Shown one piece after another: positions 1 to 20,028 of a stretch of 64,000 nt of DNA. The DNA is taken from positions 1 to 64,000 of the forward strand of contig PLWQ01000038.1 in assembly GCA_003165595.1 (NCBI GenBank). Direction: 5' to 3'. A program made the translations under genes and the position numbers. The notes beneath the pieces were generated by a model. The model saw only the letters and a list, made by a program, of their open reading frames with translations, ran no database searches and was not told where the DNA came from. How positions within the stretch are numbered: the first letter of the stretch is position 1; every line of letters begins with the position of its first letter. Source of the stretch: Fibrobacterota bacterium (lineage in GTDB: Bacteria > Fibrobacterota > Chitinivibrionia > Chitinivibrionales > FEN-1185).

Positions 1-21
1 CCCCGCGCTCGCGGGGAACAT
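1..21 (-). CRISPR. First repeat of a type I-E CRISPR array (partial)
   Basis: The first 21 bases are the leader-side end of a type I-E-like repeat. Read on the minus strand they give ATGTTCCCCGCGAGCGCGGG and one more G, with the short GC palindrome typical of I-E repeats, which begin like GTGTTCCCCGCG. The array lies downstream of cas1, cas2 and the exonuclease in the same orientation and continues beyond the left edge, so no spacer is visible. The call rests on one partial repeat plus its position next to a complete I-E cas operon. Confidence 0.8.
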
Positions 22-180: not shown

Positions 181-1945
<1,765 letters not shown>

Positions 1946-1949
<4 letters not shown>

Positions 1950-2809
1950 TGTAATAGATTCCTTACTCTTTTTTCAGGCAATTCCTTGTAATTGACGGCG
2001 GAAACGACCTTCCTTCCCGACTTTTTCTCCAGGTCTTTCCTGGCATTACCCGCCACGGTTCCACCATCGTTTGCAGCCTTTTTATTCGGTTCGAAACCAA
2101 CAACGTCCCTCTTTTGCGCTATTTCGGTTGTCGCCGCCTCGCCAAGCATATTGAAAATCAATTCCAAGTCTGTCATGTGGTCGCGCAGATTCTCGTTTGG
2201 TTTATCGAGGCCTTTATGCTTCTTGTATTCTTCTGGGGTAAGCCCGAATGCCGCTTTGCTGATTTCCGAGGTAAGAATTGAATATTCGTCCTCGCCCTTT
2301 ACACCACGTTTCTTCCACTCATCGGTCAGGTTCTTGCGAACTTCGATGCCACGAATTCGTTTCTCGATCCATTCATCGCTGTACCCTTTGATCCGGTATG
2401 TCGCGCGCGTCCGCTTAATTGCAAGCTCAGGATTTTCTATTTCCTGCACTCGTTCATATCCGACTTTGGCCAACCATCTCTTGAACGGCTCAGCCTTGGG
2501 CGAAGGAATGGATTGGATGATACGGAAGATGCCTTCGGTATTGGCGCAATCGGTTTCCCGGAGTTTGCCGTCCGGCGCAGGCAGTTTCAACCCGTGACAA
2601 ATTGTCACGACTTCACTTCCTTCCTCCTTCAACCGTTCTTTCAATTTTCGCCAATAGGCGCCCGGGTCAATGCTATCGGTCAGCGCCCCTGCAACGTCCA
2701 CAACCGAAAACCACCACTCGTTGTTATTCAATGTCCTCCGGATTTCACGGTTCTTAAATACCGCGATCTTGGCCGAAGGCATGGAAACGTCTTTTTTCTT
2801 TTCAAGCAT
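1946..2809 (-). CDS. BRO-N domain protein (DinD / phage antirepressor-like) inside the cas operon
   Basis: A 287-residue protein with an N-terminal BRO-N domain (about residues 10-105; IRRTLNNNEWWFSVVDVAGALTDS and TEGIFRIIQSIPSPKAEPFKRWL). The C-terminal half is typical of the chromosomal BRO/DinD-type family (YSILTSEISKAAFGLTPEEYK, NLRDHMTDLELIFNMLGEAATTEI, GGTVAGNARKDLE). BRO-N domains are DNA-binding modules of phage and viral antirepressors. E. coli DinD is SOS-inducible and antagonises RecA. The gene sits 17 bases after cas6e and overlaps cas1 (ATGA), so it is embedded between the effector and adaptation genes. The start at 2809 has AAAGGA upstream. A TTG at 2830 overlapping the cas6e stop is an alternative. 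Its role with CRISPR is unknown. Confidence 0.9.
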
Positions 2810-2826
2810 TCTTGGAATTTCCTTTC

Positions 2827-3609
2827 TCAAACCGGCTTGATGAGCATGAGGCCGCAGCCGAAGGATTTGGCGCGGCCGATGCCGGTGTAAAGACTTTCCT
2901 TGAATCTTATCGGATCAATGATAACCAATGTTCCTGAAAAATCAATACTGCTGAATCGAATATTTTGATTGCCTTTCTTCCGCAACAAATGTTGTTGGTA
3001 TGCGTAGGCATCCAGCCAGGGTTCATCCTCGGAAGTCTCAACAGAAAAGCCATACTGGGCACCTTTTCCGATTAACCAGTGAGAAGCAGCATTTTGCATC
3101 CGCTTCTGAATTGTTTTCTTGTTGGTTATTCCATCATACTTTGCCTTGGCTTTTTCGTCCATGAGAACATCGTGGTATCTGCGTAATTTTGTAGGTTCCT
3201 TTTCCTTAAGCCCTAGTTGACGTCTGCTTCTTTGCCATTCCTCGATGTTTGAACGTGTAATCTTTTCCTGGATGGTAGGATTTGCTCGTAGGTCAAATGT
3301 CAGTCGCAAGCCGTTTTTGAGGACCGGATCATATTCTTTTGATTCAACTCTTAATAAACCTGGAACGGCTCTTGGGTTGCGTTCGGAAACAACATAAAAT
3401 AATGGGAGCCCTCGTCTTGTTTCTTCAAATGCGAGCTGTTCCTTTTCAAATTCTTGCCGGAAAAGGAAATCACGTTTTGCGTCCGGGTTGTCCGGAAAGA
3501 GTTTCCAGAGAAGTTGATGTACCGTATAAACATTGCCTTGCAGAATACGAAGCAATTCTATTTGTGCAAGGGTTCCTGGTTCAATTCGTACACGCGAAAA
3601 AACCATCAT
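2827..3609 (-). CDS. cas6e: CRISPR RNA endoribonuclease Cas6e (CasE/Cse3)
   Basis: A 260-residue Cas6e, which cuts the pre-crRNA within the repeat and stays bound to the crRNA 3' hairpin in Cascade. It has the N-terminal RVRIEPG strand, a VHQLLWKLFPD segment carrying the expected catalytic His near residue 30, and the C-terminal glycine-rich loop GIGRAKSFGCGLMLI that binds RNA. The ATG at 3609 overlaps the cas5e stop as ATGA. A second ATG follows directly. An in-frame upstream extension without a ribosome site was not used. Confidence 0.95.
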   Translation of the reverse strand: MMVFSRVRIEPGTLAQIELLRILQGNVYTVHQLLWKLFPDNPDAKRDFLFRQEFEKEQLAFEETRRGLPLFYVVSERNPRAVPGLLRVESKEYDPVLKNGLRLTFDLRANPTIQEKITRSNIEEWQRSRRQLGLKEKEPTKLRRYHDVLMDEKAKAKYDGITNKKTIQKRMQNAASHWLIGKGAQYGFSVETSEDEPWLDAYAYQQHLLRKKGNQNIRFSSIDFSGTLVIIDPIRFKESLYTGIGRAKSFGCGLMLIKPV

Positions 3610-4358
3610 TGTCCCCTTTCTTCGCGCATGTTTACTTGTACGGGCGCAAACTGCCATCTTCTGCGATTAAGAGAACAGTCATACCTTTCAATGGTTTGTT
3701 GAGGTTGCATATCGCCGGACTCACCATCCCAATAATATCTATTGACTGTATCGGGTATAAGCCAACTGGTGAGATCGCGTTTTCCGTCTTTTGTTTCGAC
3801 CAACGGAGGAAATTTCGCACTTAATGCGGAATGAAATCCATCGGCGTCAACCATGTGTGGTTGTAATGGCACCGAAACAGGGCAGGATTTTCTGCCAAGA
3901 TATAAAACGAACCTTGGTTTAAGCAAAGCATTTTGAATCTCCGACAACGAGTATGGTGATTCCGACTTAGAACAAATAGCAGTAATGGCAAGGCTGTCGC
4001 ATCGATATTCACGGGAAGAAAGTATGGTGCTCAATCGATTGTCGGTACGACTGCCACCGATGACAATTTCATCGCGTCTGGTGGCATACGAAAACTTTCC
4101 GACACTGTCGGGAACCTGCACCGTATGGTAATCTTTCAGGAGGAACCCGGGATTAACGACCTTCACCGCGACCGAATACCCTTTAGTCAACGCATCGAGC
4201 CGACCCTGTTCTCCGCGTTTTATTCCAAGCGCAGCCCCGAGCAGTCCGAGAATAGCCGCCTTGCCGGGAAAAGACGCGCTTCTTCGTGTTTCTCCTACGG
4301 CTATTTCACCCCAAGCGGCCATAGGGCCGTATAGCCTGAATACAAGATATTTTTCCAT
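3606..4358 (-). CDS. cas5e: Cascade subunit Cas5e (CasD)
   Basis: A 250-residue Cas5e. In Cascade it caps the 5' handle of the crRNA and contacts the first Cas7. The N-terminus MEKYLVFRLYGPMAAWGEIAVGETR and the FPGKAAILGLLGAALGIKR stretch are characteristic of the family, and so is the DYHTVQ motif. The ATG at 4358 is preceded by GAGG and lies 7 bases after the cas7e stop. The 3' end overlaps cas6e. Confidence 0.94.
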   Translation of the reverse strand: MEKYLVFRLYGPMAAWGEIAVGETRRSASFPGKAAILGLLGAALGIKRGEQGRLDALTKGYSVAVKVVNPGFLLKDYHTVQVPDSVGKFSYATRRDEIVIGGSRTDNRLSTILSSREYRCDSLAITAICSKSESPYSLSEIQNALLKPRFVLYLGRKSCPVSVPLQPHMVDADGFHSALSAKFPPLVETKDGKRDLTSWLIPDTVNRYYWDGESGDMQPQQTIERYDCSLNRRRWQFAPVQVNMREERGQ

Positions 4359-4365
4359 TTTTACC

Positions 4366-5484
4366 TCACTTGGCAACAAATTCGAGTAGTTCTTTCATTG
4401 TTCCTTCACCGGCTATGACGTTAAGCGAATAGCAGAAATCAGCACACTTACCGTAGACCTTATCCATATTTTCTTGCTGTTCCTTTAAGGCTTTGATAGA
4501 ATCAGCCCCGTAATTTGTTCCAGTCACAGGTTTAAGAAACGAAACCGAAAGCGACCGCGGTTGCTGTTCGCCTTTTTCAGCCAGCACATACGAAGCGTAT
4601 GCCCTGCTTGCATGACTGTTCTGCATCCCTGTTGGAGACACCTTGACTGCGGTTTCGGTTAGCGCTTTTATTGCCTTATTAGCAAGTTCTTTATTTCCGC
4701 CGAGATTTTCAACAAGCAAATCCTTATTGATGCAGATGTAGGTGTAAAACATAGCTGCCGCAAAACCTCTTTCGCCTATATGCGCAGCGCCAGCATCATC
4801 TTCGTGTTTGTTAAGATCGTCGACAGCGGTAAAATAGTCGTCCTCGATGACAACCGGGTGTACACTGATTGCGTGGGAAACCTGGCAAGCGGCTTCTTCG
4901 TTAAATGCAGGGTTAGAGGCAAGCATCCTGCCGAAAAGCGCTATATCAACGGCCGTTTCGGGCTTTCTCAACAAATCCAATTCTTCCGGCTTGGGCGCTC
5001 TTTTCTCTTCGGAAATACATTTGTCTACCAGATCCATCACGGCCTCCATCTCTTCGGGCGAAATATGGGCCAGTTGCTCGATTTCAAGCGAAGAAAGCGG
5101 GTTTTTATCTGCATCTTTTCCTTTTTTCTTTTTTGTGTCCGTTTCTTCAGTCGTATCGGTGTTACTACTGTCTTTTCCTTTGAGTTTGCCAAAAACACCT
5201 GCAATATTTTTTGCCCATTCAATAGCGTCTTTCTCAGTTACTTTTCCTTCTATGAATTTATTGTAGACTTCGACCCCAAGTTTTTTTGTTCGTGTTCCTA
5301 TATGTCCTTTAACAGCAGATTCGAACAATTCCGACGTTCTCCAAGCCCTCTTAAGGCTCTGCGACGATATTCTTAAACGGTCAACACCGCCCATTTTGGC
5401 CGTCTTCGGCCGCCCCATGTCATCGCGGTTAAGATTGGCCGGCGGATAGGAAGTGAGAATATGAAGCTGAATAAACTGACTCAT
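4366..5484 (-). CDS. cas7e: Cascade backbone subunit Cas7e (CasC/Cse4)
   Basis: A 372-residue Cas7e, the six-copy backbone protein of Cascade that holds the crRNA spacer. It begins with the conserved MSQFIQLHILTSYPPANLNRDDMGRPKTA segment and contains LRISSQSLKRAWR, where RNA contacts are expected, and GAAHIGERGFAAAMFYTYI. Residues 110-145 form a Thr/Lys/Asp-rich low-complexity insert (SSNTDTTEETDTKKKKGKD) that looks like a disordered loop. AAGGAA stands 8-9 bases before the ATG. The gap to cse2 is 28 bases. Confidence 0.95.
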   Translation of the reverse strand: MSQFIQLHILTSYPPANLNRDDMGRPKTAKMGGVDRLRISSQSLKRAWRTSELFESAVKGHIGTRTKKLGVEVYNKFIEGKVTEKDAIEWAKNIAGVFGKLKGKDSSNTDTTEETDTKKKKGKDADKNPLSSLEIEQLAHISPEEMEAVMDLVDKCISEEKRAPKPEELDLLRKPETAVDIALFGRMLASNPAFNEEAACQVSHAISVHPVVIEDDYFTAVDDLNKHEDDAGAAHIGERGFAAAMFYTYICINKDLLVENLGGNKELANKAIKALTETAVKVSPTGMQNSHASRAYASYVLAEKGEQQPRSLSVSFLKPVTGTNYGADSIKALKEQQENMDKVYGKCADFCYSLNVIAGEGTMKELLEFVAK

Positions 5485-5512: not shown

Positions 5513-6127
5513 TTATTTATTTGAAGGTTTAGTTATTGGTACTGCCTGGAAATATTCCATTCCCCAGCGAACCAGAATCCGCTTGCGAGGGTCGTTATCA
5601 ACTTCCCCATCCATCATTTCGCTGGTCCAATGGAAAATGCTGTCGGCTATGGAAACAATGTTCGCCTTCTTTCCCAGCAACCTGACTGCACGTATCATTC
5701 GAATGTATAATTCGTCAAGCGTGCGACTTTTTTGAAGCTGGGAAAATCGCAATTCACTCATTTGCGGTTTATCTTTGTTTTTTTCACCGGGCGTTGCGCA
5801 TTGCGCGGCAAAGCTTTTGAACTCGTTGTTGGTTTCAACGTGAGATAGGATACCTGCAACTGCCGCCAAACCAAGAAGGCGCAGCTCTTGTGTCCACCAT
5901 CCGGTAAGTTCAAAACACAAGTAGCGGAAACCTTGTGACAACAAAACATCGCCCGGACTTTCCGCGCGACGTAATTCCGCGCGCCAACCGGGATTGTTTC
6001 TCAATGAAGCCCACCAAGAACGCAGTTTCTGATGGTCTTCTTCATTCCAAAATGCGTAATAGCGCTGCCTGGGCCTTTTGTCGTTTTTGCCCACTGTCAA
6101 ATCAACAGTTTCTATGGTTTCACTCAT
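5513..6127 (-). CDS. cse2: Cascade small subunit Cse2 (CasB, Cas11e)
   Basis: A 204-residue, mostly helical Cse2/Cas11e. Two copies form the inner belly of Cascade and stabilise the target and non-target strands in the R-loop. Family hallmarks are LRSWWASLRNNPGWRAELRRAESPGDVL in the first third and RFSQLQKSRTLDELYIRMIRAVRLL in the C-terminal half, including the conserved RFxxLL-like run. The ATG overlaps the cse1 stop as ATGA. Confidence 0.92.
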   Translation of the reverse strand: MSETIETVDLTVGKNDKRPRQRYYAFWNEEDHQKLRSWWASLRNNPGWRAELRRAESPGDVLLSQGFRYLCFELTGWWTQELRLLGLAAVAGILSHVETNNEFKSFAAQCATPGEKNKDKPQMSELRFSQLQKSRTLDELYIRMIRAVRLLGKKANIVSIADSIFHWTSEMMDGEVDNDPRKRILVRWGMEYFQAVPITKPSNK

Positions 6128-7683
6128 ACGGCCTCCTTGAGTGCGTTTATTGATTTTATTTTTTCACTTCTCAGAATTGCGGAAAGCGATTTTGCGGCAA
6201 GTGCAATGCGTTTCATATTCCGGGGCTCGTCAGTTGCGTTTAAAGCGAAACGGTCGAAGATTTTTTCGGCGGCAGAAATGATTGTATTCCGCCATTCGGA
6301 AAGAACAGGTGCTGTAGGTTTTTCGGATTCTATTGCGGCGCGAAGTTGCTCTACCAAGGAATAGAATTTGGATTCGGTGTCTTCCCAGAAAGAACCAGAA
6401 ATAAAGAACGTATCTCCCTTCACGTCCTTAGGTCTTGAAAACCATGCGGCTTTTACGTGGTCTCTTAATATTTTTGCAACATCTGATGATGCCGCAATCA
6501 GCTTGCTGATTACTCCAGCAAAATCATCCTTTTTATTTGATGCCAGGTGGATAATAGGCATTGTATGTTCGTACCAGCAACGGGCTTTCATGTTGTCCAT
6601 ATCATATCCAAAACACCAGAGGTGCGCATGCACATTCTTCTCAATTGCAAAGTATTTTCGTTCGTTAAACGACTTGACAACCAAAGAGGCCTTTTCGCCT
6701 TCGGTATTGCCAAAAGAAAGTGACAACCAATCGCGATAACTTAAGCCACCTTGTTTTCCTTTCATTGCAATAAGACTCACGCTTCCATCTTTTTCTTTTT
6801 GGAGCCTATAAGGACTTAAGGCATGTTGCCATGTAGAGGAATAACTTGGACCATGATTTAATGTTCTGTAATTTTCCCAAACAGCACTGCTTTTTCCACA
6901 CACGTCACAGGTACTGTTTTTGTTTATCTGGGATAAGCGAATTCTTCTCGGCATTCCCCAATACATCTGGAGTTCATTTACGTCATGCGGAAATGTTTTA
7001 TAATCCTCGTTGCTCAATCTGATTTTACCCATCCATGGGAATACATCTGCTGATAACTTTTGGGGCAGGACAAATTCTTTTTCGCCAATTGCCAAAATAT
7101 TCAGCCAAATGTTTTTCCATAAAATCATCTCTCTTTGTTCAGAAAAAATCAGTGTTGTCATTGGCCCGCCACCTCGCATTCCAGTACGATGCCCCTGTCC
7201 ACCAGATGGGGCATTGGTTTGTAATGTAAATATTGCAGCAGCTGTACAATTTTCACATAGATTTTTAAAGTTGTTCTGCTTAATAAAGTAATCACCACCA
7301 CCTGCCACATCTATAAGCAATGAACCCATATCATGCGAGGTTATTTTTTTATCGTCTCGATTTATGGTAACATCCTGCATAAACGCCGGGCCCTTTTCCG
7401 CATCCAATTCAAACGCTTCCGAAAGCTTCTCAAACGCTTTCCGCAGTTCTTCGCATTTCGGCACTTTCTTCCATTTTTCCTCCCATTCATTATCATCATC
7501 CGGCGCAAAAGCCGTCTGCACCAGCCCGATAAGAAATTGATACAATGCCCCGCGAAAATCGGGACGTGGTGCCGCGATGTCAACAACCGGATTATCCGAT
7601 GCGCCTATCTCAAACGGCGCAATGGTATCGGCTGCGCCATCGGCCCGCCGAACTGATATCCATTTGTCTTGAATAAGATTCAT
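6124..7683 (-). CDS. cse1: Cascade large subunit Cse1 (CasA, Cas8e)
   Basis: A 519-residue Cse1/Cas8e, which reads the PAM, opens the target DNA and recruits Cas3. It opens with the usual MNLIQDKWISVRR and has the loop segment APSGGQGHRTGMRGGGPMTTLI (about residues 156-178) typical of the family. Two CxxC pairs are visible, CENC near 142 and CDVCGK near 262. Either could bind zinc, which is an inference. The C-terminus is a helical bundle. The start codon is the base after the cas3 stop, giving tight coupling. Confidence 0.95.
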   Translation of the reverse strand: MNLIQDKWISVRRADGAADTIAPFEIGASDNPVVDIAAPRPDFRGALYQFLIGLVQTAFAPDDDNEWEEKWKKVPKCEELRKAFEKLSEAFELDAEKGPAFMQDVTINRDDKKITSHDMGSLLIDVAGGGDYFIKQNNFKNLCENCTAAAIFTLQTNAPSGGQGHRTGMRGGGPMTTLIFSEQREMILWKNIWLNILAIGEKEFVLPQKLSADVFPWMGKIRLSNEDYKTFPHDVNELQMYWGMPRRIRLSQINKNSTCDVCGKSSAVWENYRTLNHGPSYSSTWQHALSPYRLQKEKDGSVSLIAMKGKQGGLSYRDWLSLSFGNTEGEKASLVVKSFNERKYFAIEKNVHAHLWCFGYDMDNMKARCWYEHTMPIIHLASNKKDDFAGVISKLIAASSDVAKILRDHVKAAWFSRPKDVKGDTFFISGSFWEDTESKFYSLVEQLRAAIESEKPTAPVLSEWRNTIISAAEKIFDRFALNATDEPRNMKRIALAAKSLSAILRSEKIKSINALKEAV

Positions 7684-10452
7684 TTATTCCTCCTCGTCTA
7701 AGGACGCTCCCCAGCCATAGCGGGGACTGTAGTAATTGCAAATTGCATTATTCAAAGAAAAGGCTTCCGTGGAATGTTCGGTTGCAATAACTATCTCGGT
7801 ATATTTCAATCTGGGCAGCTTCTTTTTCAAATCCTCTATTGCTGCCATATACCTTAGTGGCGTTGTGTAACCGACACGATTCCATGCAGATCGAGACACG
7901 GATAACGTGCTCCAATCCCATGCATGTTTCTCAAAATCTGCATCATGTTCCTTAAAATCTGCATAGGGGGTAAGTACATTCTCACGAAATACGGCAAGCG
8001 CTATTTCATGGCTTTCTTCCGTAAGCCTGGTTTGAACCTTTTCGTCTTCGTCCCATTGATCGGCTCTCACGGCGTCGCGGCAATATCCTTTTTCAAGGAT
8101 AAGCGCATTCAAATGGCCCATTCCCGTTTGCGCCTGAACATGACCTTCCGCGCGTATCGTCGCTTGTTGCAAACCATCTGGAATATTTGCCTCTGACGCA
8201 TCTCCATACACCGATTCGATCAATGCACGAGCATCACCGGGCATAGACCATCCACCCTTTTCTCTGAGAATTTTTTGTGTAAGCCACAGTCGTCCTGTGT
8301 GGGCATAAACTGCGGAAGATCCTTTAAAGTCGCCACTCATCCACGTTTTGTCTGGAGTTTCGGAAAATTCTGGACCGTAGATATACAAAACTGGTTCCGC
8401 TCTTTCATCAATTACTCCCGGTACTTTATTCGGAATGCCGTTTTTATTTCTGCAATGCCGATGTAGCCGACCGGCCCGCTGGATCAACAAATCCATGGGA
8501 GCAATGTCGGTTATCATCTGATCAAAATCAAGGTCGAGCGATTGTTCCACGACCTGCGTGGCAATAAGGATGCGGCCTATACGATCCGCAGGCTCAGAAT
8601 CTTCACCGTTGCCGAAATACCGTACAACGGCGTTTTCAATTCTCGTTCTATCAATCATTGCGAAACGACTATGGAAAAGATCAATTTTCCCCGACGACAC
8701 ACCTCGTCTTATTAATTCGTGAAATGCCTTTCTTGCATCTTCCACGGTATTTCTTATCCAGCAAACGCATTGCCCTTCTTGCGATTCCCGCAGAATCTTT
8801 TCAAAAACCAGCCCCCTCTCATGAAGAAATTCGACTGCAAGGTTTCTCGCCATTTCTTTTCTGGTTTTCATTTCATGCGTTATCGTGATGTTTGCGGTGA
8901 CTTGCGTAACCATGGGAAACCCGGTCTGTTCTTCAGCGGTCGTTTGTTCTTCAGGTTTGCCATCCAAACCGGATTGAAATTTCCCGATCAATCTTTCTCG
9001 AATATTCCGCGGAATGGTTGCGGAAAGAAGAATTGCCGATCCGCCATTACGGGCATGGGCCTCAAGCAAAACGCCAAGAAGATGCTCCACGTAGGAATCG
9101 TAGGCATGTACTTCGTCAACGATAAGAATTTTTCGATGAAGACCGATCATACGCAGCGATTGATGGCGTGCAGGCAGCACGCTCAATAATGCCTGGTCGA
9201 TGGTACCGACTCCAACATCCGCAAGCAACGCCTTTTTGCGGTTGTCGGCAATCCACCCGTTGCAATATGCGCTCGCGGTTTCTTCCTTTCCATATGAGGT
9301 GTCATCGTGATGTTTAGGAACTCCGATAGAATCCGTAAATTTTTTAGAGAGGTGCCGTGTGCCATGCGAAAGAACAAGCGACGGGCGTTCTCCTTCTGAA
9401 TATAGCTTGTCATAAGCTTTTTGCAGCCGCGCATACATGGCATTTGCCGTAGCCATGGTAGGCAAACCCAAATAGATGCCATCGGCATTTCCGGCACCCA
9501 TCATCCGTTGAGCAAGAATCAGCGCCGCTTCGGTTTTTCCTGCGCCAGTAACATCTTCAATAACCCACAATTTCGGGCCGGGCTGTAATTCCGTTTCCGC
9601 CACATGTTTTTGCAATGGGGTAGGTTGCTTGACGAATGGAAATAAGTCGATAATCCGGTTGAAAGGACGAATGCCACGATCATGCCAGCCGATTGTGGAA
9701 ACGGCTTTTGCTGCCCGAGGTAAAGCAATTTTATTCCAATATTCAGCCAAAGGAATCCGTTCGAAGTTATAAGGGAAAAAGTCTATATTTGAACCGACCC
9801 AATCGGCAAGGATAGACAATCCGGCAAATTGCCATGAGGCATATTTGAAAATCTGCTTTTGCTCTTTCTCCAAATCGGGCATTGAAGGTGCAGTAGGTAG
9901 TAATGAAAAACATTCCTGCACAAAAGCCGAAGCAGCGGCAAGATCACTCTGGTCGAAAAAACTACCACAACAAAGAATGGCATTGCCACCCTTGGCCGAT
10001 AGATTTGGTGGAATGCCATGATGTCCGCATCCAGCTTTTATGATAAGCTCAAGCATCTCTGCAAGCTGTTGATTTCGGTTTTTAACTTCATTTTTTATCA
10101 CCTCTCTCCAGAGGATAAAACCAACGGTATCGTGTCGTTCACTGTATTCCTTCTTTTTCTTGGCTCTAAATAGTTTGAGAAATAGCGGCTCAATGAGACC
10201 TTGAAACGCTGTTGAAAACTTCCCCAAATCATGGAGTAACAATATCAAAACGAACAAGTATTGGACAAGTTCAGGAGAAATTCCGGTCGACCGTGAAAGA
10301 TCTTGATTCCTGCGAGTTGTGGGATGCAAAATATGAAACCCCACTGCCGCCACATCCAGGCAATGATACGGCAACAGATGGTAAGATCCATCTTTCTTAT
10401 TCCATTTTCCCCAATACCGGTAATACGTTTTTTCAATGTCCACGTTTTCCAT
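7684..10452 (-). CDS. cas3: CRISPR-associated helicase/nuclease Cas3, type I-E
   Basis: A 922-residue Cas3 with an N-terminal HD nuclease followed by an SF2 helicase. HD residues appear in [23 protein letters not shown] (about 92-105) and KAGCGHHGIP. The helicase has a Walker A-like DVTGAGKTEAALILAQ, the DEVH box in ILIVDEVHAYD, SATIP, and the QRAGRLHRH motif VI. It degrades target DNA after Cascade binding. It starts only 3 bases after the AIPR stop and ends next to cse1, so it is expressed with both. The region is intact with no frameshift. Confidence 0.96.
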   Translation of the reverse strand: MENVDIEKTYYRYWGKWNKKDGSYHLLPYHCLDVAAVGFHILHPTTRRNQDLSRSTGISPELVQYLFVLILLLHDLGKFSTAFQGLIEPLFLKLFRAKKKKEYSERHDTVGFILWREVIKNEVKNRNQQLAEMLELIIKAGCGHHGIPPNLSAKGGNAILCCGSFFDQSDLAAASAFVQECFSLLPTAPSMPDLEKEQKQIFKYASWQFAGLSILADWVGSNIDFFPYNFERIPLAEYWNKIALPRAAKAVSTIGWHDRGIRPFNRIIDLFPFVKQPTPLQKHVAETELQPGPKLWVIEDVTGAGKTEAALILAQRMMGAGNADGIYLGLPTMATANAMYARLQKAYDKLYSEGERPSLVLSHGTRHLSKKFTDSIGVPKHHDDTSYGKEETASAYCNGWIADNRKKALLADVGVGTIDQALLSVLPARHQSLRMIGLHRKILIVDEVHAYDSYVEHLLGVLLEAHARNGGSAILLSATIPRNIRERLIGKFQSGLDGKPEEQTTAEEQTGFPMVTQVTANITITHEMKTRKEMARNLAVEFLHERGLVFEKILRESQEGQCVCWIRNTVEDARKAFHELIRRGVSSGKIDLFHSRFAMIDRTRIENAVVRYFGNGEDSEPADRIGRILIATQVVEQSLDLDFDQMITDIAPMDLLIQRAGRLHRHCRNKNGIPNKVPGVIDERAEPVLYIYGPEFSETPDKTWMSGDFKGSSAVYAHTGRLWLTQKILREKGGWSMPGDARALIESVYGDASEANIPDGLQQATIRAEGHVQAQTGMGHLNALILEKGYCRDAVRADQWDEDEKVQTRLTEESHEIALAVFRENVLTPYADFKEHDADFEKHAWDWSTLSVSRSAWNRVGYTTPLRYMAAIEDLKKKLPRLKYTEIVIATEHSTEAFSLNNAICNYYSPRYGWGASLDEEE

Positions 10453-10455
10453 TCC

Positions 10456-12225
10456 TTACCTCAACCCCTTCTTCCTCCACCCCCACTTTTCCGTCGCCTC
10501 GCCCATGCAGAAACCAAACGCATTATCCTTATTCAAGAACGTAACATCCCCTGCCTCGATCTTCTCGCTATTCTTCTCTTCAAGTGAAGCAATAAGCGGT
10601 CTGCAGCGCCTACTCGAAACATCGGCGAGGTAATCGGTGAACCCGTTCGACATCACCATATCCGTTCCGAAGTTCCCGGATAGTTCTTCGAGCTTTTCAT
10701 CGTTCAGGATTGCCTGGCAGAGCAGGGCCCAAAGGAGGTTGCGCGCTTTCTTAAGATACCAGTATTTCGCCGGTCCCTTGTCCACAATCTCTTTTATCAA
10801 TCTGTTCAGCCTGTATTGGATCTTGTAGCAAAGCACTATGCGCCGGAAATCTTCTTTCAGGCGCGAAGGGCTGAAGACCTTCTCGTACACTTCATCCTCT
10901 TCAAAGGCGTCTCGCAGCGAACCGAGCAGCTTGAGTTCCCCGTCGGACGCGAGGAATGTCTGCGCGAGTTTGAGGAGCTTTATTTCCTTCTTTTCCGTAA
11001 TGCCGTCCTCGGTCTCAACGTCGATATCCGCAAAGGCGTTTTTCTGGCGTTCGTAGTAAATTCCGAGATCGGTGCGGAATTTGTCTTGGATAAGGAGCTG
11101 AATTTCATCGTTCGCGTGCAGGTCCCAGGGCGCAACCGGGTTTTGGCGGTTGTTGTTTATGGTGACCGCCGTGACGAACGCTGGTTCCGCGTCGGTTATG
11201 AACTTGCAGAGCACGCGGATCGACTCCAAAACCGGCCGGTATTTTTTGTAATCGGGGTTTTCCTCGTTGAGATTGTTATCCGCGCAAAATGCGTTGAACG
11301 TCGTGACGGTTTGGGCGCCGTTGAGTAGGCGGGGCGATGCCACGTGGCATTTCTTGTCCGCACATTTTACTTCCTGCGCCGCGATGGTTACGCCGTTGTG
11401 GTTGAACGCGAAAACGTCGGCAGATTCATTTCCGTCAATAACGATCTTCCGGAAAGAATTGGCAATTGATTTATTCACGTAGCCTTTATCGCCCAGTCCA
11501 TAGCGGATATTTCGCTCAAAAAACCTGCTTCCCATATCCCGGTACATGGCGTGCAGGTCCATGAGGCGCATAAAACCGATTGTCATTTGCTCGCCGTTGG
11601 GGCCGGCTTGCCGTAGTGCCTGGTCAATCGGCAGATCGTAGACACATACTTTTGATGTTGACCCGGTCTGGCCTATTTCCGGGGTAGAAACGGTACGCTT
11701 ATCGTAAGTAAACCGGACATTGCGGCCGTTAAAAAAACGGTCGATTATGAATTTCTTCTGCTCTAATTGCTCAAGGAGATTCTTTACATATTCGCTCTGT
11801 TCAAGCTCGGTAAGTTCGCCGGACACAAGTAGGCGCAAATAGACTTGATCAATGACCGCATTATTTTCCAGCAGGCAGTTCGCCAGATGATTTGAAAACC
11901 GATCGCCGTTTCCAGCGGGTTTTTCGGTTGCGAATATCTTCTCGACGCCGACGGTTACGAATTGTCTCAAGGGCTGTTTCACTTGGTCGGCCAGCGATGA
12001 AGAACTGGAAAGCAAGAGGTAAAGGTTGCGACGCTCATTGTCGAAGTAAAAAGCATTAACGCCATATTCGGTGTTGGAAAATGCCACCTGATTGATCGCA
12101 GCTTCTTTTACAAGACCGCACTCACTCATGAGGTATGCGAGCGAAAGGTAATGGTCCCTTGTTCCACCTGCGGTTTCTTTCATCTCCTGATAGAGCTTTT
12201 TTGCGGTTCTTTCGAGGTCGGTCAT
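10456..12225 (-). CDS. AIPR-family abortive infection protein, fused by operon to cas3
   Basis: A 589-residue protein with the core signature of the AIPR (abortive infection phage resistance) family: FFERNIRYGLGDKGYVNKSIANSF near residue 236, FAFNHNGVTIAAQEV near 272 and SPRLLNGAQTVTTFNAF near 297. Members act in phage defence, often beside restriction or other defence genes. Many carry a nuclease-like N-terminal region. Here the matching stretch (GVNAFYFDNERRNLYLLLSSSSS) has no obvious QxK, so catalysis there is doubtful, though I cannot verify this. The stop is 3 bases before the cas3 ATG. AAAGGA precedes the start. It is not a known component of I-E systems. Confidence 0.88.
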   Translation of the reverse strand: MTDLERTAKKLYQEMKETAGGTRDHYLSLAYLMSECGLVKEAAINQVAFSNTEYGVNAFYFDNERRNLYLLLSSSSSLADQVKQPLRQFVTVGVEKIFATEKPAGNGDRFSNHLANCLLENNAVIDQVYLRLLVSGELTELEQSEYVKNLLEQLEQKKFIIDRFFNGRNVRFTYDKRTVSTPEIGQTGSTSKVCVYDLPIDQALRQAGPNGEQMTIGFMRLMDLHAMYRDMGSRFFERNIRYGLGDKGYVNKSIANSFRKIVIDGNESADVFAFNHNGVTIAAQEVKCADKKCHVASPRLLNGAQTVTTFNAFCADNNLNEENPDYKKYRPVLESIRVLCKFITDAEPAFVTAVTINNNRQNPVAPWDLHANDEIQLLIQDKFRTDLGIYYERQKNAFADIDVETEDGITEKKEIKLLKLAQTFLASDGELKLLGSLRDAFEEDEVYEKVFSPSRLKEDFRRIVLCYKIQYRLNRLIKEIVDKGPAKYWYLKKARNLLWALLCQAILNDEKLEELSGNFGTDMVMSNGFTDYLADVSSRRCRPLIASLEEKNSEKIEAGDVTFLNKDNAFGFCMGEATEKWGWRKKGLR

Positions 12226-12262: not shown

Positions 12263-12436
12263 TCAATGCACTATATGTCTTCGGCAAAGCTTGTTGCCTT
12301 CTATTCTCCCCACCGCCGCCACATCCAAGCAATGATAAGGCAACAAATGATAGTCATATCCGCTACCATCGTCCCGAATCCTCGCCTTGCCCCAATATTT
12401 GAAATATGGCTTTCCTGTTTCTTCTTCCATCTTCAT
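12263..12436 (-). pseudogene. 5' remnant of a second, diverged cas3 (57 codons)
   Basis: An ATG at 12436 preceded by AAAGGA opens a 57-codon frame. Its residues 11-43 (YFKYWGK...[17 protein letters not shown]) match residues 11-38 of the intact cas3 (YRYWGK...[15 protein letters not shown]), including the first HD-domain histidine. After VAAVG the similarity stops abruptly, and the frame ends 14 codons later. Many shared codons differ synonymously (TTG/CTG, CCT/CCG, GCG/GCA), so it is not a recent duplicate. It lies between the DUF6933-like gene and AIPR and is most simply the stump of an earlier cas3 interrupted when the AIPR-cas3 pair arrived. Confidence 0.8.
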
Positions 12437-12607
12437 CCTGGTAATCCTTTAATCCCGCGAATCCTGATCCGTTTTCATCCCCAAGAACGCCTCAACCGGG
12501 TAACCAGCGATACTCAAATGAATGTAGTTCTTCATCCGGAGAGATAGCCCGTAGGGGTCCAATTGTTCTGATCCAATGGCGTACTTTGCATAAGATATGT
12601 TGTCAGT

Positions 12608-12637: not shown

Positions 12638-12666
12638 CAACCCTAAGGAAGAAGACAATTTTAGTC

Positions 12667-12705
12667 GTTTGCTAACCCCGAAGCAAGCTTCGGGGATGCG
12701 CAAAC
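12667..12705. repeat. Small palindromic element 2 disrupting a reading frame
   Basis: Arms CCCCGAAGC and GCTTCGGGG flank a 2-base AA loop, and outer arms GTTTGC/GCAAAC extend the stem over 39 bases. The element lies where the reading frame of the DUF6933-like gene changes, which suggests it was inserted there. It may be a REP- or MITE-like unit. No transposase is nearby. Confidence 0.6.
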
Positions 12706-13075
12706 TTTGGGATTCATCGAACCGATTACTCTTCTGTCCTGCGACTTGGCAAACCGGACATCCTTTAGTCCGGGAACAATAATCCTGTGGAAAATGAGGT
12801 CGGCCCCAATTTCATGCAAAACTTCTTTGAGTGTGTCGCTCAGGCGGGAGATGAACTCGCCGTAATCCGTGACGCCTGCGCCGTGCATGAAGACCGAAAA
12901 CAGAGATGTGCTATTTGTCGCCATGATGTACTGCGCACGGTTGCAGGTAAACAGATGCGCATGCCAGTCGAGAAACGGATTGGAATCCGGGGGGAGCCAA
13001 GGCAGATTCGGTTCCTTGATTTTAACGGAGAGCTTCTTTGATAATCTGATAATCATTGCTCGTTGCACTTTCCCC

Positions 13076-18834: not shown

Positions 18835-20028
18835 CTACGCTGCCGAAAAAAGCGCCGCCTTCAGGATTGCCAGTCCTTCGCGCATTTCGTCCCGGGTGAT
18901 GGTGAGCGCGGGAAACAGGCGGACAACGGTTCCCTGCTTTACATTGAGGATAAGACCCCGGTCCAGGCACGCTGCCGCCGCCTCCTCGGCAATTTCCTTT
19001 TCGGCAACCTGCAGCGCAAGGAGCAGCCCCGTGCCGCGCACGGCGGTAATGAGGCGCGGGTTCTCGCGCTGCCACGAGGCGAGTTCGGCCAGGGTTTTCT
19101 CGCCCATGCGCCGCACATGGCCGCCGATGTCGTTGTCGAGCAGGTACTTTACAACTGCCAAAGACACCGCGCAGCCGAGCGGATTGCCGCAAAAGGTTCC
19201 GCCGTGGTCGCCCTTTTCGAACCGTGCGGCCACCTCTTCGGTCACGGCGAACGCGGCAAAGGGGAATCCGCCCGCGATGCCTTTTGCCATGGTGAGGAAG
19301 TCGATGTGCACGCCTTCCTGCGCCGAGGCGAACATCGGACCGGTGCGGCAGAACCCGGTTTGCACTTCGTCGATAATCAGGAAAACGCCCTTGTCGCGGC
19401 ACAGCCCCGAGACGTTTCGAAGGTACTGCGGGTCCGGAACGATCACGCCGCCTTCGCCCTGGATGGGTTCCAGGATCACGGCCGCGACTTCCGGCGTTAT
19501 CACCCTGGCCATGGCTTCCATGTTGTTGTACGGGACAAAGAGATAGTTGGGCATGAGCGGGTTAAATTTCTCGCGGTGAACGGCCTGACCCGTTGCCGAG
19601 GCGGTGCTTATCGTCCGGCCGTGAAAGCTCTGCTCCGTGGACACCACATTGAGCCTTCCCGACACCTTGCGCGCGAGCTTGATCGCCGCATCGTTTACTT
19701 CCGCGCCGCTGCTGCCGAAAAACAACCGGCAAAGCCCCTGCGGAAGAATACCGGAAAGCAAGGATAGCAGTTCGGCCCGCACGGGCGAATACGTGACTCC
19801 CGAATTGGGATTCTGGATGATCTTGCCGGCCTGCTCCGTGAGCGCCCGGGTGATAACGGGGTTGGCATGGCCGATGCACGTGACGCCCCAGCCTGCGGTA
19901 AAGTCGATATAGCGTTTTCCCGCATCATCCCACACATAGACGCCTTCGCCCCGCTCAATTGTCACATGCGTCCTGTCGAAAAACGGGGCCAGATACCTGT
20001 CCTCAACGGCTTGCGTATTTGTTTTCAT
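18835..20028 (-). CDS. Class III PLP-dependent aminotransferase (acetylornithine aminotransferase-like)
   Basis: A 397-residue fold-type I aminotransferase of the ArgD/OAT group. It shows FTAGWGVTCIGHANPVI, SSGAEVNDAAIKLARK, SFHGRT, the EPIQGEGGV motif, IIDEVQTGFCRTG and the PLP lysine in LTMAKGIAGG near residue 250. ArgD makes N-acetylornithine in arginine synthesis. No other arginine gene is nearby, and the neighbours are an AsmA-like membrane protein and a radical SAM enzyme, so another substrate is possible. The ATG overlaps the AsmA stop as AATGA. A longer start lies inside that gene. Confidence 0.85.
   Translation of the reverse strand: MKTNTQAVEDRYLAPFFDRTHVTIERGEGVYVWDDAGKRYIDFTAGWGVTCIGHANPVITRALTEQAGKIIQNPNSGVTYSPVRAELLSLLSGILPQGLCRLFFGSSGAEVNDAAIKLARKVSGRLNVVSTEQSFHGRTISTASATGQAVHREKFNPLMPNYLFVPYNNMEAMARVITPEVAAVILEPIQGEGGVIVPDPQYLRNVSGLCRDKGVFLIIDEVQTGFCRTGPMFASAQEGVHIDFLTMAKGIAGGFPFAAFAVTEEVAARFEKGDHGGTFCGNPLGCAVSLAVVKYLLDNDIGGHVRRMGEKTLAELASWQRENPRLITAVRGTGLLLALQVAEKEIAEEAAAACLDRGLILNVKQGTVVRLFPALTITRDEMREGLAILKAALFSAA

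Follow-up and report, generated by a model that had tools for sequence, protein, structure and literature searches.

An AIPR-family gene at the 5' end of a type I-E CRISPR-cas operon in Fibrobacterota and its relation to an exchanged interference module

In the literature, AIPR proteins are associated with restriction-modification, Mza or satellite defence loci (PMC2292703, PMC9523054, PMC9122126), and a HEPN motif has been proposed for the family (PMC3506569). In CRISPR-cas loci, it is a recognised trend for effector modules to be shuffled in situ and for ancillary genes to be acquired (2025 classification, PMC12669027), and WYL proteins regulate defence loci, including a CRISPR locus (PMC9122601). 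Our literature search, which had little coverage of subscription journals, returned no paper on AIPR in I-E loci. Here we analyzed an AIPR gene adjacent to cas3 in a 64,000-nt stretch of DNA (the window), which lies on contig C30 of a 5.4-Mb Fibrobacterota genome (G000) from the same order as the Chitinispirillaceae MAG Zod_Metabat.237.

The type I-E operon and the AIPR-cas3 junction

The window carries a type I-E system, with cas3, cse1, cse2, cas7e, cas5e, cas6e, cas1e and cas2e all present and the array broken by the contig end. PADLOC matched Cas3e at 1e-198, as well as Cas8e, Cas11e, Cas7e, Cas5e, Cas6e and Cas1e, and Pfam identified HD and helicase domains in cas3. The operon runs on the minus strand from 12225 to 181, in the order AIPR-cas3-cse1-cse2-cas7-cas5-cas6-BroN-cas1-cas2-DEDDh, and is followed by a CRISPR repeat at the contig edge.

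13214..13242, minus strand, promoter-like TTGACA-17-TATATT upstream of DUF6933; consensus match, count not above that in shuffled sequences
10456..12225, minus strand, AIPR/AbiU-like gene, 589 aa; heads the I-E operon as its first intact gene
7684..10452, minus strand, cas3e (HD nuclease and helicase), 922 aa; Pfam, PADLOC
6124..7683, minus strand, cse1/cas8e; Pfam, PADLOC
5513..6127, minus strand, cse2/cas11e; Pfam, PADLOC
4366..5484, minus strand, cas7e; Pfam, PADLOC
3606..4379, minus strand, cas5e; Pfam, PADLOC
2827..3657, minus strand, cas6e; Pfam, PADLOC
1946..2830, minus strand, BRO-N protein (PADLOC PDC-S13), in the accessory slot before cas1
1026..1949, minus strand, cas1e; Pfam, PADLOC
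728..1045, minus strand, cas2e; open reading frame matched by cas2 of related loci
181..789, minus strand, DEDDh (DnaQ-like) exonuclease of the CRISPR-associated type; Pfam, PADLOC
1..19, minus strand, first CRISPR repeat, GTTCCCCGCGAGCGCGGGG; array cut by the contig end, second copy on contig C36

From AIPR onward, the gaps between successive genes are 3, 0, -4, 28, -14, -52, -4, -4, -20 and -62 nt; AIPR is thus packed as closely as the core cas genes. The BRO-N gene, fitted tightly between cas6 and cas1, matches the PADLOC candidate PDC-S13 at 1e-123 and, weakly, DNA-damage-inducible protein D.

The first-pass annotation had placed the AIPR stop at 10456 and the cas3 start at 10452, three bases apart, and both the coordinates and the gap are correct. 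Exactly 3 nt (GGA) separate the AIPR stop from the cas3 ATG, and a Shine–Dalgarno-like GAGG lies within the last AIPR codons, ahead of cas3. A separate cas3 promoter would have room only inside AIPR. The putative translational coupling of the two genes is a reading of this spacing alone. Upstream, the region's best promoter-like site stands before a DUF6933 gene (12661-13068, 135 aa), itself upstream of an orphan cas3 fragment described below. This site is a possible operon promoter, and DUF6933 is possibly the first gene of the operon transcript.

The AIPR protein

Pfam AIPR (PF10592) matched residues 236-477 at 78.3 bits (cut-off 25), and the PADLOC AbiU profile (PDLC02357) matched at 1e-27. 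The protein consists of a degenerate N-terminal nuclease-like domain (residues 1-170), the AIPR core (236-477) and a clade-specific helical C-terminus; an AIPR_N domain is absent. Across an alignment of 16 AIPRs, core columns N239, R241, N251, N277-G278, N302-G303-x-Q305, N359 and Q361-N362 are invariant, and the conserved core motifs (NxR, NNG/HNG, NGxQ and NxQN) are all present in the window protein. Its identity to other AIPRs of the phylum is 16-20% over the full alignment.

In this alignment, the AbiU-type AIPRs read NDxGxDA...FQSKY, a pattern characteristic of PD-(D/E)XK nucleases. In the window protein and its closest relative (from genome G027, see below), the nuclease motif D...Q[GSA]K is lost, with N57 and SSS/ITA at the motif columns, which speaks against the window AIPR as an active PD-(D/E)XK nuclease. 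A structure model of an AbiU-type AIPR gave only a weak match to FokI (probability 0.89 but E 0.08), so that a PD-(D/E)XK fold of the N-terminal domain is no more than suggested. The HEPN motif Rx4-6H is not conserved either: its sole occurrence in the window protein, R220-H225, is placed differently in the G027 protein, which speaks against a HEPN RNase. Because the PD-(D/E)XK motif is lost and the HEPN motif is not conserved, the AIPR protein alone is unlikely to be a DNA- or RNA-cutting toxin.

Structure models of AIPR reached middling confidence (mean pLDDT 64 and 67). Foldseek with the AIPR model returned a viral AIPR first (5e-8) and then, more weakly, DndB-like, GmrSD-N (DUF262) and ParB-like proteins. 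The fold search of the PDB gave nothing significant for the window protein, no sequence relatives were found in the PDB, and no recognised DNA-binding domain was found in AIPR.

Distribution, selection and module exchange

AIPR relatives were sought in 101 relatives and in a scan of 84,980 species that reaches close relatives only. The closest was encoded at locus L021 of G027, a genome from another family of the order, and is 72% identical over the full length; the next best were about 30-33% identical over part of the length. Two viral-contig scans for AIPR relatives were empty, and matches in phages and plasmids were all below 30% identity. The L021 gene also lies directly upstream of an I-E locus. 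Hence the AIPR-cas3 adjacency, which the first-pass annotation allowed might be unique to one genome, extends beyond it: among the close relatives sampled, both known members of this putatively CRISPR-linked clade (2/2) stand at I-E loci, probably through one acquisition.

Between the window and G027, AIPR has a pS of 0.81 (saturated) and a pN of 0.165, similar to cas1 (0.78 and 0.154); the housekeeping protein Ffh is 71% identical between the two genomes. With pS saturated and pN low, as in cas1, AIPR is old, functional and under selection, and these values indicate strong purifying selection on this clade. The best-conserved part, residues 400-589, lies mostly outside the shared AIPR core.

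Of the 168 genomes of the phylum, 113 have AIPR; about 15, with ~16 loci between them, gave strong Cas3e matches (E of ~1e-70 or lower). AIPR and Cas3e are within 5 kb of each other only in the window genome and G027, leaving ~14 I-E loci without AIPR. Other genes fill comparable positions. Before cas3, G037 has a YhcG-type nuclease and G011 an SNase-domain protein; the slot before cas1 is occupied by BRO-N in the window, AlbA_2 in G027 and G039, YhcG in G037 and PDDEXK_3 in G022 and G032. AIPR is one of several accessory genes at these I-E loci. In G037, an 895-aa open reading frame with no Pfam or PADLOC match also lies between cas3 and cse1 of the I-E operon (L044:10621-13308). Nearly every Fibrobacteraceae genome has one AIPR gene of about 630 aa, which in four mapped loci (L081-L084) is away from cas genes and looks like a family core gene with a degenerate nuclease motif.

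A 45-nt repeat (89% identity) revealed an orphan cas3 fragment just ahead of AIPR, missed by the first-pass annotation.

10339..10383, minus strand, 45-nt repeat copy near the start of cas3
12308..12352, minus strand, second 45-nt repeat copy (89%), inside the orphan fragment
12263..12436, minus strand, orphan 5' fragment of a divergent cas3e, 57 codons; 37 nt before the AIPR start
12435..12457, minus strand, intergenic repeat GGGATTNNNGGATTNNCNGGAT, directly upstream of the orphan fragment

The fragment ends just past the first histidine motif of the HD domain. Recent tandem duplication is ruled out as the source of the repeat: the protein sequences of the two N-terminal fragments are not the same, and it is the orphan one that more resembles its counterparts in other genomes. 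The fragment is the scar of an operon exchange. GGGATTNNNGGATTNNCNGGAT is found once in the window genome; it also turns up, in a few copies, in several genomes from another family of the order. G+C is 43-50% in the cas operon, 53-57% in cas1-cas2 and DEDDh, and 58% in the rest of the window. From the GGGATTNNNGGATTNNCNGGAT distribution and the low operon G+C, the cas region was probably acquired.

Within the order, four loci have such orphan cas3e 5' fragments: the window, L021, L048 (G026) and L068 (G027 contig 42). That of L048 (10680-10830, minus strand) precedes a type I-C operon, its stop overlapping the I-C cas3 start as ATGA; the L021 fragment's stop likewise overlaps the start of the next gene (ATGA). 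At L068 (220-330), the fragment reaches ~codon 21 and stands before another I-C operon. These arrangements suggest that I-C took the place of I-E at the same site in L048 and L068, in separate events, given that the two I-C Cas3 proteins are only 31% identical. Three of the four fragment ends fall within about 15 codons (~8e-4 under a uniform model, for a count made post hoc and with the fourth end elsewhere). The pattern was not seen in E. coli, where partial matches among the records listed stop upstream of the cas3 start.

In L021, the cas3, cse1, cse2, cas6, cas7 and cas5 genes are those of a distant I-E lineage and are arranged in another order, the cas3 product being 28% identical to that of the window, while cas1 and cas2 are of the window type (77% and 74% identical). 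An operon of this foreign kind (B-type) in Fibrobacteraceae, L053, has its own cas1, 34% identical. Homology between L021 and the corresponding locus of same-genus G039 (L047) ends at L021:12190, ~codon 42 of the resident cas3. The foreign block extends from the cas3B ATG at 12197 to the cas5B stop at 19215; after it, at L021:19222-19272, the resident cas6 survives as its last 17 codons (GPAKAFGCGLMLIKPV), followed by an AlbA_2 gene and cas1. The two exchange scars (L021:12066-12196 and 19222-19272) thus flank the foreign cas3-cse1-cse2-cas6-cas7-cas5, with resident cas1-cas2 retained. These boundaries indicate that the whole interference module was swapped for one of a distant I-E lineage and that AIPR was kept, outside the exchanged block and 429 nt upstream of the incoming cas3. 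The G039 locus, which shares the cas1 type of G027, lacks AIPR: there a WYL regulator is followed, after a short gap, by cas3. Taken together, the exchange in G027 with AIPR outside it and the lack of AIPR in G039 show that AIPR came in next to the locus and persisted after its Cas3 was lost; it has not been co-inherited with one Cas3/Cascade lineage. In G039, a short genomic repeat (SPPSPLSTCGEGE; L047:8183-8350) is inserted in frame in the cas3 N-terminus. Cas1 was dropped as a dating marker because it evolves too slowly (69% identity even to E. coli Cas1e), and its tree was poorly resolved.

The specific AIPR-Cas3 coupling proposed in the first-pass annotation is not supported by this comparison. 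The 3-nt spacing is not conserved, Cas3 and all of Cascade were replaced in G027 while AIPR stayed, and the ~14 other I-E loci do without AIPR. G027 thereby rules out Cas3-specific coupling as a general feature.

Of the seven AIPR-less loci with known upstream DNA, six (G032, G022, G037, G035, G039 and G026) have a full-length WYL regulator ahead of cas3 or of the orphan fragment; G011 has neither WYL nor AIPR. WYL is absent from the whole window genome. Beside the G027 AIPR, it has lost its middle (about 165 residues), leaving an in-frame 158-aa open reading frame that keeps both ends (L021:9501-9977). The link between AIPR presence and WYL loss is suggestive (P about 0.08 by hand count, with two AIPR loci only).

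Role of the AIPR gene and comparison with known systems

We hold, with moderate confidence, that AIPR serves the I-E operon, at whose 5' end it lies, as an accessory (ancillary) defence gene, and that it belongs to the locus and not to one Cas3. It would share a transcript with cas3, Cascade and cas1-cas2. It would have entered the slot between the operon 5' region and cas3, where related loci hold other nuclease-type genes, and it stays there when the interference module is exchanged. More tentatively, the protein may act as an AbiU-type anti-phage factor. Its ParB/DndB/DUF262-like core might be a sensor or NTP-dependent switch, and, given the loss of its own nuclease motif, it might work through a partner or by target binding instead of cutting DNA itself. 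It could thus add a second defence layer independent of Cas3. Against the accessory-gene reading, there are two loci only, probably from one acquisition, and the window AIPR is packed with cas3 as tightly as core genes are; a dedicated partner would look alike.

Other accounts fit parts of these data. AIPR could be an operon regulator that replaced the WYL repressor, its DndB/ParB-like core and dead nuclease domain sensing infection and controlling cas expression. The fold resemblances and the lost nuclease motif agree with this, as does WYL being intact in nearly all AIPR-less loci, gutted in G027 and absent from the window genome; yet the association draws on just two loci, G011 lacks WYL although it lacks AIPR, and AIPR has no recognised DNA-binding domain. 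We regard this account as unlikely. About as unlikely, or slightly more so, is that a common gene landed beside the locus by chance and has no functional link to it. The AIPR background in the phylum is high, defence genes cluster in islands and the locus itself is a hotspot of exchange where turnover is high, but AIPR is more than nearby, lying within the operon and 3 nt from cas3, and both known clade members remain at I-E loci despite saturated synonymous divergence.

The first-pass annotation had suggested an abortive-infection effector, translationally coupled to Cas3 and firing when CRISPR interference fails. The 3-nt junction with the ribosome-binding site inside AIPR, family membership and the AbiU profile match speak for such an effector. 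Against it, the coupling is not conserved (429 nt in G027), the toxin-type HEPN and PD-(D/E)XK motifs expected of an effector are not conserved either, most I-E loci of the phylum lack AIPR, and in G027 AIPR stayed unchanged while a Cas3 of 28% identity took the place of its partner. This account seems quite improbable to us. More speculative still, and a long shot, is a dead AIPR turned CRISPR switch: it would have replaced WYL and would control or license any I-E module behind it, the locus 5' end (promoter, regulator slot and first 42 cas3 codons) serving as a fixed socket for interference modules of different lineages, even type I-C.

The window shows an AIPR gene built into a type I-E operon and retained over long divergence, an arrangement not described in the literature searched. 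Two readable scars of a whole Cascade-Cas3 exchange part the stayers (regulator slot, ancillary gene and cas1-cas2) from the replaced genes. Should AIPR be needed for protection or regulation with any Cas3, it would be a portable CRISPR accessory.

Compared with the AbiU/AIPR family, the window protein shares the AIPR domain and the invariant core motif columns; it differs in its degenerate N-terminal nuclease-like domain, its lack of AIPR_N and its site in a CRISPR operon. MzaE of the Mza anti-phage system shows an AIPR-family core match over window residues 224-379, but at 24.8 bits against a cut-off of 1050 (NCBIfam NF041935); the rest of MzaE is unmatched, and the neighbors here are cas genes. 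Like the type I-E system of E. coli, the locus has all eight cas genes in the E. coli order and an I-E repeat. Unlike it, the window has AIPR at the 5' end, BRO-N before cas1, a DEDDh exonuclease after cas2 and an orphan cas3 5' fragment upstream. With respect to the trends of the 2025 classification (PMC12669027), G027 joins a resident-type cas1 with a foreign interference module, and AIPR would be an ancillary gene. The figure example there is Cas9, whereas here a whole Cascade-Cas3 module is involved, both scars are readable and part of the cas3 5' end is kept as a short open reading frame.
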